This document shows positions 11,123 through 63,921 of a stretch of DNA of 64,000 bases, piece by piece (the first letter of the stretch is position 1; the number at the start of each line of letters is the position of its first letter). The translations under genes were made by a program, and so were the position numbers. This stretch comes from a virus, in the IMG/VR virus record IMGVR_UViG_3300025276_000023, positions 62,001-126,000 of that record; one strand, 5' to 3'. The notes below the pieces were generated by a model. That model had not been told where the DNA came from, made no database searches, and saw only the letters and a program-made list of their open reading frames with translations.

Positions 11123-11154
11123 GTTAGCTTCCTTTATGTAAAGTTCTTTAAATA

Positions 11155-11174
11155 TATATCATATAAATGATGTA
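11155..11174 (+). promoter_or_regulatory. Putative early promoter motif, copy 1
   Basis: TATATCAT, five bases, then TGATGTA, 20 bp before the start of the 11194 gene. One of six copies of a motif with identical spacing in the window. Confidence 0.5.
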
Positions 11175-17835: not shown

Positions 17836-18217
17836 CTTTACAGAAAGGTTATATGAAAGCACTATGAAAGAGTCAGATAAAATAATGGACAGCGCTTTCT
17901 TAGTTGATAAAACTGATCATCACGACACTCTACTAGACGATATAATCTTTAGACTGTACAGATATCAACGCGAGTTAAATGTAACGCGTAAGATACTCGA
18001 TACTGGTAAGGTTCAATATCGTTTCTTATCAATGGGTGACGTGCCGCTTACAATTCATCCAAGACAAGCAAGTCAAATGCTATTTACTAAACTGGAGAGT
18101 TTGCTACCTAAGCATCCAGAGAAAATGGATTTCATTGACGCTGCAATTCTACTAGATGATTTGTTAATTGAATACAACAAAGAACCTAAACGTGGCAGCT
18201 TAAGTATAAGTAACTAA
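17816..18217 (+). CDS. Unknown small protein
   Basis: The start at 17816 (MNQESFSFTERLY, 133 aa) is preceded by AGGGGATACGT; an ATG at 17792 in frame lacks a site. The product is helical and acidic, without a membrane segment or known motif. It ends at the bidirectional hairpin at 18223 and converges with the large minus-strand tail operon. Confidence 0.66.
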   Translation: MNQESFSFTERLYESTMKESDKIMDSAFLVDKTDHHDTLLDDIIFRLYRYQRELNVTRKILDTGKVQYRFLSMGDVPLTIHPRQASQMLFTKLESLLPKHPEKMDFIDAAILLDDLLIEYNKEPKRGSLSISN

Positions 18218-32982: not shown

Positions 32983-33159
32983 ATGTCAATACATACAAAC
33001 AAAAAAACCGTTACTATTGCAGCGGTTACAACTATATGCCAAGTGGCATTTCACGTTGTTACTACAGCAGGCGGCAATGAAATTGCAATGCCTGAATCGC
33101 GTGATGTTCTAGAAGACATTGCTAATGAAGTTAAACTACAGTTAGCGGAGAAAGTGTAA
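32983..33159 (+). CDS. Unknown 58-residue protein before the gp177-like gene
   Basis: A short gene starts with MSIHTNKKTVTIAAVTTICQ and ends in a TAATG overlap with the 33159 gene. GAGAGGATACTC precedes its ATG. The strong site, the tight overlap and amino-acid-like composition support a real gene. It could be a head component or a chaperone for the following structural protein; no family is recognised. Confidence 0.65.
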   Translation: MSIHTNKKTVTIAAVTTICQVAFHVVTTAGGNEIAMPESRDVLEDIANEVKLQLAEKV

Positions 33160-34610
33160 TGAATCGTTTCCTCACATATGGTTTAACAGTTGCAGAATAT
33201 TCAGCAATTGATATCGCACCTGTTCCAGGTTCTCCTTTAGCTCAAGCAGTTAGTATTATTACTCCTAACAAGCCAGTTGAAACAGTAGAAGAAATAGCGA
33301 CTGGTTTAGAAAGCGCAATTGATCAAACACTTATTGATTTCGTTGGTGGTTACGGTGATATCTCTGAATCTATGATTCATGACTTATTAGAAGTGTCTGG
33401 TAAACGTTTAGAATTTATTCAAACAACAGTTGCTCCTTTATCTGCTCGCTTTGCTGAAATGGTAGCAGGTAATCTTAAATCAAATTTAGATGCTACTAAC
33501 ATTATCGACTATGACATTGCTACGCATGAATTGCCTCGCATTGCAACGTCTGGTAATCTTGAAGGTATCTGTAAACAGTACATTGATACTGAAGGTTTCA
33601 AAAACGTAACTTACTCTCCATCTGCTTACTTCATAGATGAGTCAGAAGAAGTGTTAGTTAATACTTTAGAATCTGGCATTGCAGCATGGGATGAAGAAGT
33701 AAAAGAAATCCTAACAGCGGCTGGTGAAGAAGGGATGGTTAAAGCTTACAACCGTTTCTTAAACAATGTTCGTGGTACAGAAGTTGATAAAGATGGTAAC
33801 AACATTGTTACTTATCCAAACAACATCGAATACCTAAACGATTACATCCTTTGTTTCTTATTTGTTAACTCTGCTCTTTTAGGCGGATACGAAAACAAAG
33901 ACAAGATGTTACATGGTCGCTACAACATCGATACAGTGCTACGTAGTACTGCTGGTGCGCTTGGTACAGTGATTAAATCAATCATTGATATCTATGGTCG
34001 TGCTGTTGAAACTAACCGTGTGATTCGTTCTATCGATCATGAAAACAATGTTATTGAAGTATTCAAAACTAACTTCAACGACTACGTTGCCAATGGCGGT
34101 GAAGCGGAAGTACTTAAGATGGGTGCATTACTCGCATCTGAAGGTCATGGTGGTTTCCTTAAAATGACTACTGAAGAGTTGTTACAGAACTCTGAAAAAG
34201 CAATTGCCATGTTCAATGCTAAGATTAGCAAGATTGAACTAGATGCAGCTACCAAAGCACTAACTGCGTCTAAGATGCAAACAGCGGGTATGTTCAAAGA
34301 AATGATTGAAGGTATTTCTGAGCTTGAACTTCACATCGGTAATAAAGAAGAGATTCTTTCTTCTTCTAAAGTTGCTGATTTACTAGCTGAGATTTCATTA
34401 GAAGACTTTGAAAATCGTCCTCGTGAAATCGCACTTGAGATCTTCTGTAAAACAGTATGGCCTCAAGCTAGCTTCTGGTCTTTTATTAAGACTATGAATA
34501 CGGCTGCATTGAACGACCCTCATTTAACACCTCGTGAGTCAGCGTACAAAGCGTTCGTTAAAGAAGTAGTTGCTAACTTGTTAAAACAGACTACTGTCGT
34601 CAATGGCTAG
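33159..34610 (+). CDS. Virion structural protein (phiKZ gp177-like by position)
   Basis: The 483-residue acidic protein lies between the polymerase beta gene and the prohead protease with one small gene before the protease, the order of gp178-177-176-175 in phiKZ. It has a possible processing site GLE (49-51) before an amphipathic stretch (SAIDQTLIDFVGGYGD). The rest is helical, with no membrane helix. Codon choice is optimal-looking, as expected for an abundant virion protein. Starts by TAATG coupling to the 58-residue gene. Confidence 0.65.
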   Translation: MNRFLTYGLTVAEYSAIDIAPVPGSPLAQAVSIITPNKPVETVEEIATGLESAIDQTLIDFVGGYGDISESMIHDLLEVSGKRLEFIQTTVAPLSARFAEMVAGNLKSNLDATNIIDYDIATHELPRIATSGNLEGICKQYIDTEGFKNVTYSPSAYFIDESEEVLVNTLESGIAAWDEEVKEILTAAGEEGMVKAYNRFLNNVRGTEVDKDGNNIVTYPNNIEYLNDYILCFLFVNSALLGGYENKDKMLHGRYNIDTVLRSTAGALGTVIKSIIDIYGRAVETNRVIRSIDHENNVIEVFKTNFNDYVANGGEAEVLKMGALLASEGHGGFLKMTTEELLQNSEKAIAMFNAKISKIELDAATKALTASKMQTAGMFKEMIEGISELELHIGNKEEILSSSKVADLLAEISLEDFENRPREIALEIFCKTVWPQASFWSFIKTMNTAALNDPHLTPRESAYKAFVKEVVANLLKQTTVVNG

Positions 34611-36140: not shown

Positions 36141-36154
36141 AAAAGTTACAAAAC

Positions 36155-36174
36155 TATATTATTAAGATGATATA
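36155..36174 (+). promoter_or_regulatory. Putative early promoter motif, copy 3
   Basis: TATATTAT, five bases, then TGATATA, 15 bp before the 36190 start. TATATTA is the closest of the six to the phiKZ early motif TATATTAC. Confidence 0.55.
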
Positions 36175-38489: not shown

Positions 38490-39677
38490 ATGAAACAATA
38501 TATTGAATCAACTACTCACGTTTTAAACAGCGGTATCATTAGCCCTACTCGTGGAACACCAACAGTTGCTGTACACGGTATCATGACTCGTTACGACTGT
38601 AGCAAGTTTCATCCAATCACTACCATCAAACATCAAGGCATGAAAGACATGACTACTGAGATGGAATGGATGATGAAAGGTCTTACAAGCAATCTGTGGT
38701 TATTAGAGCGCGATTGTAAAATCTGGAACAAGTGGGACGTACTTCCTTTAACAGAAGTGGATATTGCTGATAAGTTAGCAGAAGTAGGCGTTAGCGTAGA
38801 TTTCTCTTTAGTTGATCAAGAAACACTTTCTAAACTTACAGCAGCATTGAACATCTCAGACAAATCTGGTGAGTTAGGTCCAGTGTACGGTGAGATGATG
38901 GCTAACTGGCCTACTAGCAATGGTGAAACTATTAACCAGCTAGATGAACTAATCGATGGTATTCGTGAGAACCCATTCAGTCGTCGTCACATTGTGAGTA
39001 TGTGGAATCCTGAATTCTTACCTAATGAAAAAGCAGACCATGTTGAGAACATTAAAAACGGTAAGCAAGTTCTACCTCCTTGTCATATGTCTTTCCAAAT
39101 ACTTATTAGAAATGAACCTTTCTTTGCCGGCATTACAAAAGAACCAATGACTGATGTTGAAGCTGCTAAAGCAATGTGGTCAGCGGCAGTAGGCAATGGT
39201 CACACAGATAAAATATTCCATGAATGGGTTTCTTCTGTACTGGCTAGTGAAAAGACATATGTTGAAATGGTAAGTGCTTTATATGAATCGGGTTTTGTTT
39301 TCAAAACAGGTGTATCAACTGATAATTTAATCGAGCGTTATAACCGTCGTTACGTAGATTTACTATTTACTATGCGTAGCAATGATAAACCATTAGGCGA
39401 ACCGTATAACGTATCTAACTATGGTACTCTATTAGCCGCTGTAGCGCACCTCACTGGCTTTGAACGTGGTGACTTGATACATTCTACCGGTAACAGTCAT
39501 ATCTACTTAGATCAGCTTGAGGGCGTTGATACAATGCTTTCACGTGAACCTAAAGAAGGTACTCGTTTACTGATTGAAGATCGTGGTCAACGTTACCTTA
39601 AAGATTTCGCTGCTTCTGATTTTACATTAGAAGATTATCAATCACATGGTAAAGTTTCTTTTAAAGTAAACGTGTAA
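38490..39677 (+). CDS. thyA: Thymidylate synthase with family-unusual insertions
   Basis: The 395-residue enzyme shows the active-site set: PFSRRHIVS (R165/R166), LPPCHMSFQ with nucleophile C198, FTMRSNDKPLGEPYNVSNY with the RS-x-D element and N307, and GNSHIYLDQ. N307 in PYN marks dUMP methylation rather than dCMP hydroxymethylation. It makes dTMP from dUMP with methylene-tetrahydrofolate. It is much longer than bacterial ThyA (264): about 40 residues are added at ~85-128 and ~70 between the Cys strand and RS-x-D (~210-280). The start follows the leader hairpin. Confidence 0.92.
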   Translation: MKQYIESTTHVLNSGIISPTRGTPTVAVHGIMTRYDCSKFHPITTIKHQGMKDMTTEMEWMMKGLTSNLWLLERDCKIWNKWDVLPLTEVDIADKLAEVGVSVDFSLVDQETLSKLTAALNISDKSGELGPVYGEMMANWPTSNGETINQLDELIDGIRENPFSRRHIVSMWNPEFLPNEKADHVENIKNGKQVLPPCHMSFQILIRNEPFFAGITKEPMTDVEAAKAMWSAAVGNGHTDKIFHEWVSSVLASEKTYVEMVSALYESGFVFKTGVSTDNLIERYNRRYVDLLFTMRSNDKPLGEPYNVSNYGTLLAAVAHLTGFERGDLIHSTGNSHIYLDQLEGVDTMLSREPKEGTRLLIEDRGQRYLKDFAASDFTLEDYQSHGKVSFKVNV

Positions 39678-41778: not shown

Positions 41779-41798
41779 TATATCATACTAGTGAGTTA
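41779..41798 (+). promoter_or_regulatory. Putative early promoter motif, copy 5
   Basis: TATATCAT, five bases (ACTAG), then TGAGTTA. Nearly the same as copy 6 at 44083 over 18 bases. The 106 bp to the next start (41904) would be a long leader. Confidence 0.6.
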
Positions 41799-42843: not shown

Positions 42844-43339
42844 ATTACCTAAAGAAGCTCTATCAAATAAAGAAATGATAGCTAAGTATATCGTTGCTTT
42901 AGTCAATGGTCCGTTAAGTCAAATCAAACAAGACTTGAAGGATGGGGGTTGCACTATCCATATTGGATTTAATGAAGACTTTGAACGTGAGCAAGTAGCT
43001 GGGTTTGCTGATAAAGACGTTCTGCTGAATGCACATAAGCAATTGAACTTCACTATATTAGTTACAGGTTTAGAAGCGGGTGGTCGTGATTTCTCTGCTA
43101 AGACTAACGTACCTACTTTATCTAGCGATATTAGAAGCACTGAATTAATTATTCATTTAAGCCATGGTGATTTAAGAGGATTCGTTCCAGAAGTTAAGAT
43201 TGAAGAAAGCGATGGATTTAAAGTAGAGATCTCTAGTCTATTTTATTATACGGTAGATCGTTTCCTAACCAATCTATCCAATGGTGTTGTTCTAAAGCAA
43301 TGCAGCGGCGCTGAAGGACGTAATCGTTACCATGTCTAA
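42836..43339 (+). CDS. Unknown protein overlapping the HigA-like gene
   Basis: The start at 42836 (MNELPKEALSNKE, 167 aa) follows AAGGAATTATTCG; an ATG at 42818 in frame is less well placed. The protein is mixed alpha/beta (GGCTIHIGFNEDFEREQVAG, TELIIHLSHGDLRG). Overlaps of 8 bp on both sides put it in one unit with the HigA-like gene, the usual position for a toxin. Nothing in the sequence identifies a ribonuclease, so toxin status is conjecture. Confidence 0.62.
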   Translation: MNELPKEALSNKEMIAKYIVALVNGPLSQIKQDLKDGGCTIHIGFNEDFEREQVAGFADKDVLLNAHKQLNFTILVTGLEAGGRDFSAKTNVPTLSSDIRSTELIIHLSHGDLRGFVPEVKIEESDGFKVEISSLFYYTVDRFLTNLSNGVVLKQCSGAEGRNRYHV

Positions 43340-43772
43340 AGATACGCGCCATATATGTGATGTGCTTCGAGAAGAGTTCTTAGAGCCAAATAACCTTAGC
43401 CGTATAAAAGCAGTTAAAGCAATGCAGATGTCAAATACGGTTTACTCGCATACAGCTAAAGGGAAACAAATGCCAAGCATAACGTTCTTCTCTAAGCTAG
43501 CTCATTATACAAATACAGATGTAGAGTTTTGGATAGAGCAACATGCAAGATGGTGTGTAGAGCGTGCTAAGGATCTTTTAGCTGAACTTAAACCTCGCCC
43601 TTGCTTTGAAGATAAAGTCTTGACCTGTGAAGAACCAGAACCCTATACAGATAAAGACTTAATCATGTTCGACCTCAATGCATTAGTACGTGATAATAAG
43701 AAAGTAGCCTATAATAAGAAAGCAGAAGGTAAGTTCTCTGCTTTTCCAGCTCCACCAACAATGTTAAAATAA
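43332..43772 (+). CDS. HigA/VapI-like antitoxin homologue (Xre helix-turn-helix)
   Basis: Residues 8-80 match the HigA/VapI family pattern closely in layout: ICDVLREEFLEPNNLS at the start (compare 'G-E-x-L-R-E-E-F-L-x-P-x-x-x-S'), a helix-turn-helix across 23-55, then TDVEFWIEQHARWCVERA (compare 'S-P-E-F-W-L-x-L-Q-x-x-Y-x-L-x-x-A'). HigA proteins bind operator DNA and neutralise a co-encoded HigB RNase. Here a ~65-residue charged tail follows. No obvious HigB is next to it; it may be an orphan antitoxin that blocks host HigB, or a phage repressor. Confidence 0.72.
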   Translation: MSKDTRHICDVLREEFLEPNNLSRIKAVKAMQMSNTVYSHTAKGKQMPSITFFSKLAHYTNTDVEFWIEQHARWCVERAKDLLAELKPRPCFEDKVLTCEEPEPYTDKDLIMFDLNALVRDNKKVAYNKKAEGKFSAFPAPPTMLK

Positions 43773-44006: not shown

Positions 44007-44082
44007 AAACGCGGTATTATTTTACACACATCGCTAATGATTTGACGAACAGCTAATACCTGATTCGAAAACAAACCAAGTA

Positions 44083-44102
44083 TATATCATCCTAGTGAGA
44101 TT
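44083..44102 (+). promoter_or_regulatory. Putative early promoter motif, copy 6
   Basis: TATATCAT, five bases (CCTAG), then TGAGATT, 43 bp before the 44146 start. Together with the terminator at 44622 it frames a single gene. Confidence 0.6.
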
Positions 44103-44145
44103 TCAATAAAGAAGTCCGCTACATTAAACCAATAAAGGAAATACC

Positions 44146-44598
44146 ATGTCTTTAAAAACTAATACTACAGATCTTTCAGCAATCATCAAAACTAAACTTG
44201 CGCTAGTAGACGGCGAGATTAACGATACTGTAGCATACGAAGATTCATTACCAGAAGGTCTTGATCTAGATACAGTTAAATCAGTTCGTTCACATGACAA
44301 AGCATACGTGCCAGCATTTACTCACGCTGCACAAGCTGTTGTTTTCGACGCAATGAAAGCTGACTCTGAAGTAACTTCTGTTAAAGCAACTACTGATCTA
44401 CATGGCGGCGATAGCTTCTCAGCAACTATCAATCGTTCACGTAGCTTCCCAGTACCTGGTGAGAAAGACAAATCAACTGTAACAGTTTACGGCGCTACTT
44501 CTGTATCGTACGCAAGTGCTGCTGGCAAAAACGCTGGTGAGCTTAAGAAAGTATTATCTGCTGGTAAAGAACAGTTCGCTGCACTAGCTGAAAAGTAA
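44146..44598 (+). CDS. Probable abundant early protein of unknown function
   Basis: The 150-residue product is soluble, Ala/Ser/Lys-rich, with a beta-rich middle (ESPTTDLHGG-like stretch, then FSATINRSRSFPVPG and STVTVYGATSVSYASA) and helical ends. Codon use favours common-tRNA codons (GCT, GTT, AAA, CTT in runs) more than its neighbours. It has its own promoter-like motif and a very strong GAAA-loop terminator, and AAAGGAAATACC precedes the ATG. That set suggests high expression from an isolated transcript. I recognise no family; a DNA-binding or host-takeover protein are among possibilities. Confidence 0.68.
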   Translation: MSLKTNTTDLSAIIKTKLALVDGEINDTVAYEDSLPEGLDLDTVKSVRSHDKAYVPAFTHAAQAVVFDAMKADSEVTSVKATTDLHGGDSFSATINRSRSFPVPGEKDKSTVTVYGATSVSYASAAGKNAGELKKVLSAGKEQFAALAEK

Positions 44599-44621
44599 CA
44601 ATTAAGAAACAATAGACAATG

Positions 44622-44660
44622 CTATGCAGGTGGAAACACCTGCATAGTTTTTATTTTTTC
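44622..44660 (+). terminator. Very strong GAAA-loop terminator with U-tract
   Basis: CTATGCAGGTG-GAAA-CACCTGCATAG followed by TTTTTATTTTTTC. Confidence 0.88.
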
Positions 44661-62477: not shown

Positions 62478-62510
62478 ATAAGTAGGGGATTCGAAAATCC
62501 CCTACAGTTA
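62478..62510 (-). terminator. Hairpin between inner-head genes, minus strand
   Basis: GTAGGGGAT / ATCCCCTAC with loop TCGAAA; minus-strand tail TTATGGAG, where GGAG is also the ribosome site of the next gene. Confidence 0.6.
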
Positions 62511-62520
62511 ATTGAATGTA

Positions 62521-63921
62521 TTAAACAACAGCTGGTAGGTTATCTTCTACTTTAGCATCTGCGCCTTCAGACTTATCGTCGTTTGCAGCAGTTTGACCAC
62601 TAAGGTGGAATTTAGCAGAACGCTCAGCGTAACGAAGGTAATCGTCAGTTACTGATTGGAACGTAGACGTCAATAGACCGTGAGGCATGACTACAGAATC
62701 ACGAACGATACGACTCATTGCAGTTAGTTCACGACCAAGTTTTGCAGTCTGTTCAGTACCACCAAATTTTTCAACTACATTGCCTTCAAAAAGACGATGT
62801 TTAGCAATGTTTTCAAGAGTTTTAAGTGCAATTACTTTACCGCTGATAGCTTGTTCAATATCAGTTACAAGTTTACCTAGCTCATCTACAGTAAGTACAG
62901 GAGCCATCATTGATTCAGGCGTGTTTTCATCTTTGACTAGGCTAAATTTCATGCTCTGGATATGATCCGAAACTCTAATAGCATCGACACCTGATTCGCT
63001 AGTTATTGCAGTAACTGCATTTTTAGTTATCTTGATTTTCTTTTTGCCAACTAAAGGACTAGTAGCAGTCATTTCATCATCTTTACCGGCAACAAATTTA
63101 AGCTTGAAAATAGACGTATATGAAGTAACTACTGAGTCAGCTGCTCTGATTACGCCATCTAAAGCTTTTCTGTCAACATTAATCTCGCCTTTTTCTTTAT
63201 CTACTTGAACTTTCGTTGCTACCGCCGCTGCTTCAACGAAGGTAAGTAGTTCAACAAATTTAGGATTAGCACCATTCAACATTGAGAATACTTTAAGCAT
63301 TTCACTGTATTCGCCAACTGTACCTACGTTAGCTACCTGCGAACCCGTAAGACGAATTTCATCACCCGCTTTCGCTTTTGATTCAGTTTTCGCTTTATCG
63401 ATCATTGAACGTAAGTTTTTAACGCGTGTTTCTTTACCACGGAACATGTTGAAGATTTTAACAACAAGCTCATATAACCACTTACCTGCTTGTTTAAGTT
63501 TTTCACCAACAGCAGAAGCCATATCTTTAAGTGTTTGACCGATTGCTTCTGCACTGTAAACAAGACCAGCTTCGCTTTCAAAACTTTCAGTTACTTGTGA
63601 TTGAGTTTTACCAAGTACGTCAGCGTGGATATCAAGATCAGTACCTTGAACCGCGCCATAAGCAACAGCCATTGTAAGACTTGCTTGTTCAAAAGAATGG
63701 ATTGGTTTACCAGCAAAAGATGCAAGAAGATCAAGTGCTTCCATACGAGACTCTAAAGACGCAACAGTTGTTTCGCTTTCTTCAATGTCTTGTTCAACAG
63801 ACTGATCTAACATGTTAGATTCAACTGCATGTTCTGCAACTTGTTCCGCGTATAAATCATCTGGCATTGCAACTGACTCAAATGATGCTACTGGTTTACG
63901 GATTATTAAAGTTCTAGCCAT
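62521..63921 (-). CDS. Probable inner-body protein with a long N-terminal propeptide
   Basis: The 466-residue protein has six S-x-E sites in its first 125 residues (13-15, 41-43, 56-58, 76-78, 113-115, 123-125). The last, SAE, is followed by AIGQTLKDMASAVGEKLKQ and an amphipathic helix to KIFNMFRG, like the 5721 and 61362 proteins. phiKZ-type inner-body proteins are cut after S/A/G-x-E by the prohead protease, so most or all of the first 125 residues may be removed. The mature part is helical and Lys/Val-rich. AAAGGAAAACGTAAA precedes the ATG. It sits upstream of the terminase operon. Confidence 0.7.
   Translation of the reverse strand: MARTLIIRKPVASFESVAMPDDLYAEQVAEHAVESNMLDQSVEQDIEESETTVASLESRMEALDLLASFAGKPIHSFEQASLTMAVAYGAVQGTDLDIHADVLGKTQSQVTESFESEAGLVYSAEAIGQTLKDMASAVGEKLKQAGKWLYELVVKIFNMFRGKETRVKNLRSMIDKAKTESKAKAGDEIRLTGSQVANVGTVGEYSEMLKVFSMLNGANPKFVELLTFVEAAAVATKVQVDKEKGEINVDRKALDGVIRAADSVVTSYTSIFKLKFVAGKDDEMTATSPLVGKKKIKITKNAVTAITSESGVDAIRVSDHIQSMKFSLVKDENTPESMMAPVLTVDELGKLVTDIEQAISGKVIALKTLENIAKHRLFEGNVVEKFGGTEQTAKLGRELTAMSRIVRDSVVMPHGLLTSTFQSVTDDYLRYAERSAKFHLSGQTAANDDKSEGADAKVEDNLPAVV

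Follow-up and report, generated by a model that had tools for sequence, protein, structure and literature searches.

A stand-alone gene of a phiKZ-type phage, its family in chimallin phages and its predicted HU-like fold

We ask what a small, stand-alone and apparently strongly expressed gene might do in a phage whose DNA may be housed in a phage nucleus. The window, i.e. the whole stretch of 64,000 nucleotides analysed here, covers positions 62,001-126,000 of a 129-kb IMG/VR virus record, and its recognisable genes for tail sheath, tail tube, virion RNA polymerase beta and head protease place it in the phiKZ type. The organisation of DNA within such a nucleus remains largely unstudied, and no function has been assigned to many of the core genes that these phages carry. 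The features to which the text refers are as follows.

44077-44097, + strand: early-promoter-like element CAAGTATATATCATCCTAGTG, AT-rich, about 50-70 nt before the start codon (consensus match, matrix rank)
44135-44140, + strand: ribosome-binding site AAGGAA (sequence)
44146-44598, + strand: the gene, ATG start, 150 aa (open reading frame; PHROG 9746/7952 family)
44146-44265, + strand: residues 1-40, predicted helix 1, small beta hairpin and L-P-E-G segment (AlphaFold2, charges, conservation)
44266-44361, + strand: residues 41-72, predicted long helix 2 (AlphaFold2)
44377-44514, + strand: residues 78-123, predicted three-stranded antiparallel sheet with protruding beta2-beta3 ribbon (AlphaFold2; weak profile alignment)
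44452-44475, + strand: predicted ribbon tip FPVPGEKD (AlphaFold2)
44533-44592, + strand: residues 130-149, predicted C-terminal helix with the conserved basic G-x-L-K-K-V-R (AlphaFold2, conservation)
44621-44659, + strand: intrinsic terminator (scan)

The isolated gene, its promoter and its expression

The initial annotation described a stand-alone gene with its own AT-rich promoter motif, a strong ribosome site, a clear codon bias and a GAAA-loop U-tract terminator, and this description holds. The gene forms a separate unit, flanked by intergenic DNA of 139 nt on its upstream and 79 nt on its downstream side; its good ribosome site AAGGAA lies 5 nt ahead of the ATG, and the strong terminator (44621-44648 in the scan) consists of a 12-bp stem, a GAAA loop and a U-tract. 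It is noted that this isolation is conserved across the family described below: an upstream gap of at least 60 nt is found for 60 of 67 family members and for 348 of 823 other same-strand genes at the same loci (p = 1.5e-14), and a terminator for 34 of 67 and 182 of 823, respectively (p = 1e-6), both p-values being optimistic because there is some relatedness among the loci. Just upstream of the gene, 43332-43772 gives a weak match to a helix-turn-helix regulator (HTH_3, E 9e-4).

The element at 44077-44097 matches, with 2 mismatches in 21 positions, the jumbo-phage promoter consensus that is given for OBP in PMC7058600, where it is listed with N1M2, 201phi2-1, EL and phiKZ and sits before the OBP early operons. 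The window holds three sites with at most 3 mismatches to this consensus, all in gaps upstream of genes and with 44077-44097 the best of them; the count is weak alone, because 0.95 such sites are expected from shuffles and 8 of 100 shuffles reached three. With a matrix built only from the upstream regions of other phages (RAY, SA002, PCH45, SPLA10 and L021), the element ranks 6th of 127,960 positions. A similar element occurs 63-86 nt before ten family genes (that of the window and nine others), where about 0.26 would be expected from background, the looser regular expression behind this count having been written after those elements had been viewed. No such element was found upstream of phiKZ gp186, and the short promoter pattern of 201phi2-1 shows no enrichment in the window at 3 mismatches. 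The gene is without a TTATG late element. A host-type promoter is not claimed, because a sigma-70 scan gave fewer sites than in shuffles. The promoter motif, of the kind that precedes early genes of the phiKZ type, suggests early transcription of the gene. Further early-promoter-like sites lie in intergenic gaps at 41779-41793, 11149-11169 and 36149-36169 (+), the one at 41779 (TATATCATACTAGTG) being nearly identical to the element discussed here.

In codon usage, measured against the tail sheath and tube genes, the gene ranks second among 59 other genes (z = 3.7), with none of 2000 synonymous draws as high; since this bias is common to the reference tail genes, it is uninformative on timing. 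According to table 3 of PMC6690015, two orthologues were detected by LC-MS/MS of crude lysates, RAY gp173 with 58.1% coverage and Deimos-Minion gp179 with 61.49% coverage. Together with the codon bias, these detections lend indirect support to a high expression of the gene. The strongest tail-like codon bias elsewhere in the window is seen in two further genes, 33159-34610 and 62521-63921, whose matches are PHROG 3841 (unknown function) and, weakly, a phiKZ internal head protein.

A family shared by the chimallin phages searched

It had been stated that the protein matches no known family. This has to be corrected, as the protein falls in the uncharacterised PHROG families 7952, 9746 and 28629 (E = 2e-6 for the 9746/7952 family), and profile searches for its homologues revealed a family widespread in chimallin phages. 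A search with the single sequence gave LucasX LUCX_18 as the sole relative, and neither searching the phage collection at the nucleotide level nor scanning IMG/VR with single sequences gave any. Using tblastn and profiles starting from LUCX_18, relatives were reached in jumbo phages of Erwinia, Salmonella, Serratia, Proteus and Burkholderia, and then phiKZ gp186, PhiPA3 gp222, 201phi2-1 gp283, EL gp194, Asesino gp273, Goslar gp214 and a member in SPN3US. By profile searches, 17 named phages carry a member, among them phiKZ, PhiPA3, Goslar and RAY (gp173), and in the records of PhiPA3 and 201phi2-1 the copies bear an independent annotation of similarity to phiKZ gp186. The members phiKZ gp186, PhiPA3 gp222, 201phi2-1 gp283, RAY gp173 and Goslar gp214 are, like the window gene, single-copy and usually in a transcription unit of their own; they belong to PHROGs 9746, 7952, 28629, 32697 and 16459, all uncharacterised, and a literature search found no paper naming phiKZ gp186.

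The alignment of the family is too divergent for a pattern search, and the tail sheath was therefore used as an anchor, giving 80 IMG/VR loci. Among the sheath-bearing IMG/VR records longer than 50 kb the family is present in 56 of 56, and the records without it are all shorter than 46 kb. The chimallin model PF25677 matches 24 of the 31 records searched, all 24 of which carry the family, and AR9 and phiR1-37 have neither a PF25677 match nor a family member by profile search (the AR9 hit, at E 0.03, was not accepted). The family is present without a PF25677 match in SPN3US, EL, Asesino, one IMG/VR record and the window's own fragment; PF25677 is a narrow model that misses SPN3US, EL and Asesino, and the chimallin of Asesino is known experimentally (PMC11724907). 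Among the records tested, then, the family is co-extensive with the chimallin phages. Note also that the thymidylate synthase reading frame at 38490-39677 of the window has 395 aa for about 275 aligned profile positions, suggesting an internal insertion, e.g. an intein.

Predicted fold and comparison with HU/IHF

AlphaFold2 models of the window protein (pLDDT 91.4, 55 sequences) and of a second, divergent member, L043 (pLDDT 92.9, 42 sequences) both show a helix, a small hairpin, a long helix, three strands with a long beta2-beta3 ribbon and a C-terminal helix. The predicted order alpha-alpha-beta-beta-beta-alpha with a protruding ribbon is that of HU/IHF (PF00216), including the HU proteins of AR9 and phiR1-37, and the likeness extends to a glycine in the beta1-beta2 turn and a proline that is often at the ribbon tip, the ribbon segment carrying a proline in 44 of 55 members, in some as N-P-x-T-G. 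The strict arm-tip motif R-N-P-x-T-G is found in few members and is absent from the RAY and phiKZ-type members, and the members of RAY, phiKZ and PhiPA3 are without the long proline-bearing ribbon.

In Foldseek searches of the PDB, HU/IHF proteins head the lists for both models, the best E-value being 0.12 with the window protein as query and 0.016 with the second member; no match is significant at 0.001 for either model. For the second member the probability reaches 0.92 and all matches above 0.5 are HU/IHF-like, many of which count as one, as HU chains are redundant in the PDB; normalised by query length, the TM-scores are about 0.3, and by target they reach 0.53. In BFVD, 17 family members come first, followed by viral IHF/HU proteins that include AR9 HU. 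When the family profile is aligned with 85 HU/IHF sequences, the ribbon falls weakly in register on HU residues 47-72, with an empirical p of about 0.01 (3 of 300 column shuffles; 10 of 300 for a shorter segment). A global profile alignment of the family to HU was unsuccessful, and a profile search of PDB sequences gave matches only at the level of chance.

By contrast with HU/IHF, neither the window protein nor the A4 members match PF00216 at E 0.01, nor do six named orthologues at E 1; the family proteins have 127-175 aa rather than about 90, are not strongly basic (median pI 6.0), have longer helices and carry between helices 1 and 2 an acidic insertion of 20-25 residues relative to HU, the segment of residues 1-40 having a family median net charge of −3. 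The C-terminal half carries a positive net charge (median +3). The members of the phiKZ group are more acidic than the window protein, gp186 having a net charge of −12, and their ribbon is shortened. Filing the family in PF00216 was considered and rejected, as profile match, size and charge all differ; the family may still work like HU.

A canonical HU, sought across whole genomes, was not found at the family gene in any of them, and PF00216 has no match in 15 phages that carry the family, nor in 79 of the 80 IMG/VR records. It is present in AR9 and phiR1-37, both without the family, it being understood in this comparison that absence of HU is common among phages generally and that AR9 and phiR1-37 may share ancestry. 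One IMG/VR record (L035, G033) holds both a canonical HU at 17943-18209 (PF00216, E 5.5e-28) and a family member, the only such record, and the exclusion is therefore not strict.

Candidate functions, and hairpins followed by a late-type motif

We tentatively favour, at somewhat less than even confidence, the explanation that the gene product is an HU-like architectural and putative DNA-binding protein, favoured by fold and distribution. The gene would be transcribed early, the virion RNA polymerase using the TATATATCAT...GTG element. Its product, an abundant, non-virion protein with an HU/IHF-like fold, would dimerise and would contact DNA by way of its ribbon and its basic C-terminal half; in the replication compartment it would probably bind and bend or coat the phage DNA, much as HU acts in the bacterial nucleoid. 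Host nucleoid proteins would be unable to fill this role, since H-NS-GFP was located outside the nucleus of both RAY and Asesino. A further step, which we regard as possible and rather doubtful, is that in nucleus-forming phages, from whose nucleus at least host H-NS is excluded, a divergent histone-like chromatin protein of the phage's own replaced canonical HU and organises the nuclear DNA. Against the HU-like reading stand the overall charge, the fact that the phiKZ and RAY types have lost the ribbon, the missing sequence membership and the GFP result for PhiPA3 described next.

The localisation evidence comes from PhiPA3 gp222 (YP_009217301.1, which is also the accession of the copy found here), which in the lists of PMC10643120 is among the top-25 proteins proximity-labelled by ChmA in 2 of 3 trials, and among the top-25 labelled by intranuclear RecA in 1 of 3 trials. 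In the text of that paper, gp222 is absent from the eight nuclear, six shell and five bouquet proteins named from GFP fusions. The ChmA labelling and this absence from the named nuclear fusions would fit a protein of HU-like shape that does not bind DNA, i.e. an abundant early cytoplasmic or shell-adjacent factor such as an adaptor or host-takeover protein, as would the near-neutral to acidic character of the family and the existence of short-ribbon members. We consider this somewhat unlikely, in view of the positive C-terminal half and of the RecA list, where gp222 has the fourth highest normalised peak area, given with no fold-change value against the cytosolic control. It is also conceivable, and improbable in our estimate, that the HU likeness is a coincidence of a small alpha/beta fold with an entirely different function: the Foldseek E-values are above 0.01 and the sequence evidence has p of about 0.01-0.03, while the two divergent members agree in this result and the sequences align in the structurally equivalent register.

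A role in the virion or in tail assembly, e.g. as a tail chaperone, is suggested because the gene adjoins those for tail tube and sheath: in the window and most relatives it lies between the virion RNA polymerase beta/protease block and the tail tube/sheath genes, and its codon usage resembles theirs. However, the family gene is at a different locus in PCH45, SPLA10 and the Pseudomonas phiKZ group, including phiKZ, PhiPA3 and 201phi2-1, and the promoter resembles the early class with no late element. Nor do the annotations mark a known virion protein, as 201phi2-1 gp283 is without the 'identified using mass spectrometry' tag of its neighbours gp277 and gp280, and phiKZ gp186, unlike its neighbours, has no virion or structural note. 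We therefore judge this explanation quite improbable. A likeness can also be drawn to the early ribosome-binding proteins of the phiKZ gp014 type (PMC10914614), which are likewise small, abundant and of early infection; gp014 is unrelated to the window family by any test here, and gp186 is unnamed in the text of that paper.

Returning to the HU-like architectural protein, a gene that is present once in each chimallin phage tested, and whose product seems abundant and is predicted to have an HU-like fold, offers a concrete candidate for a phage-encoded nucleoid protein, a candidacy that also draws on the labelling by both shell and RecA fusions.

Finally, we note an observation on the strong hairpins of the window, 13 of 34 of which are followed by TTATG within 10 nt, compared with 1 of 34 at a control offset; examples lie at 261, 5683, 8150, 16633, 36108 and 54675 (+) and at 62482, 58432 and 32908 (−). 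In the 80 IMG/VR loci the count is 193 of 1073 against 15 for the control, and it is 10 of 24 in phiKZ stretches, 1 of 16 in AR9 and 0 of 4 in phiR1-37. TTATG contains the phiKZ late-promoter consensus TATG, and the determinant of late promoters is called unclear in PMC7598289; the hairpin could be this missing determinant, or it could mark RNA processing.
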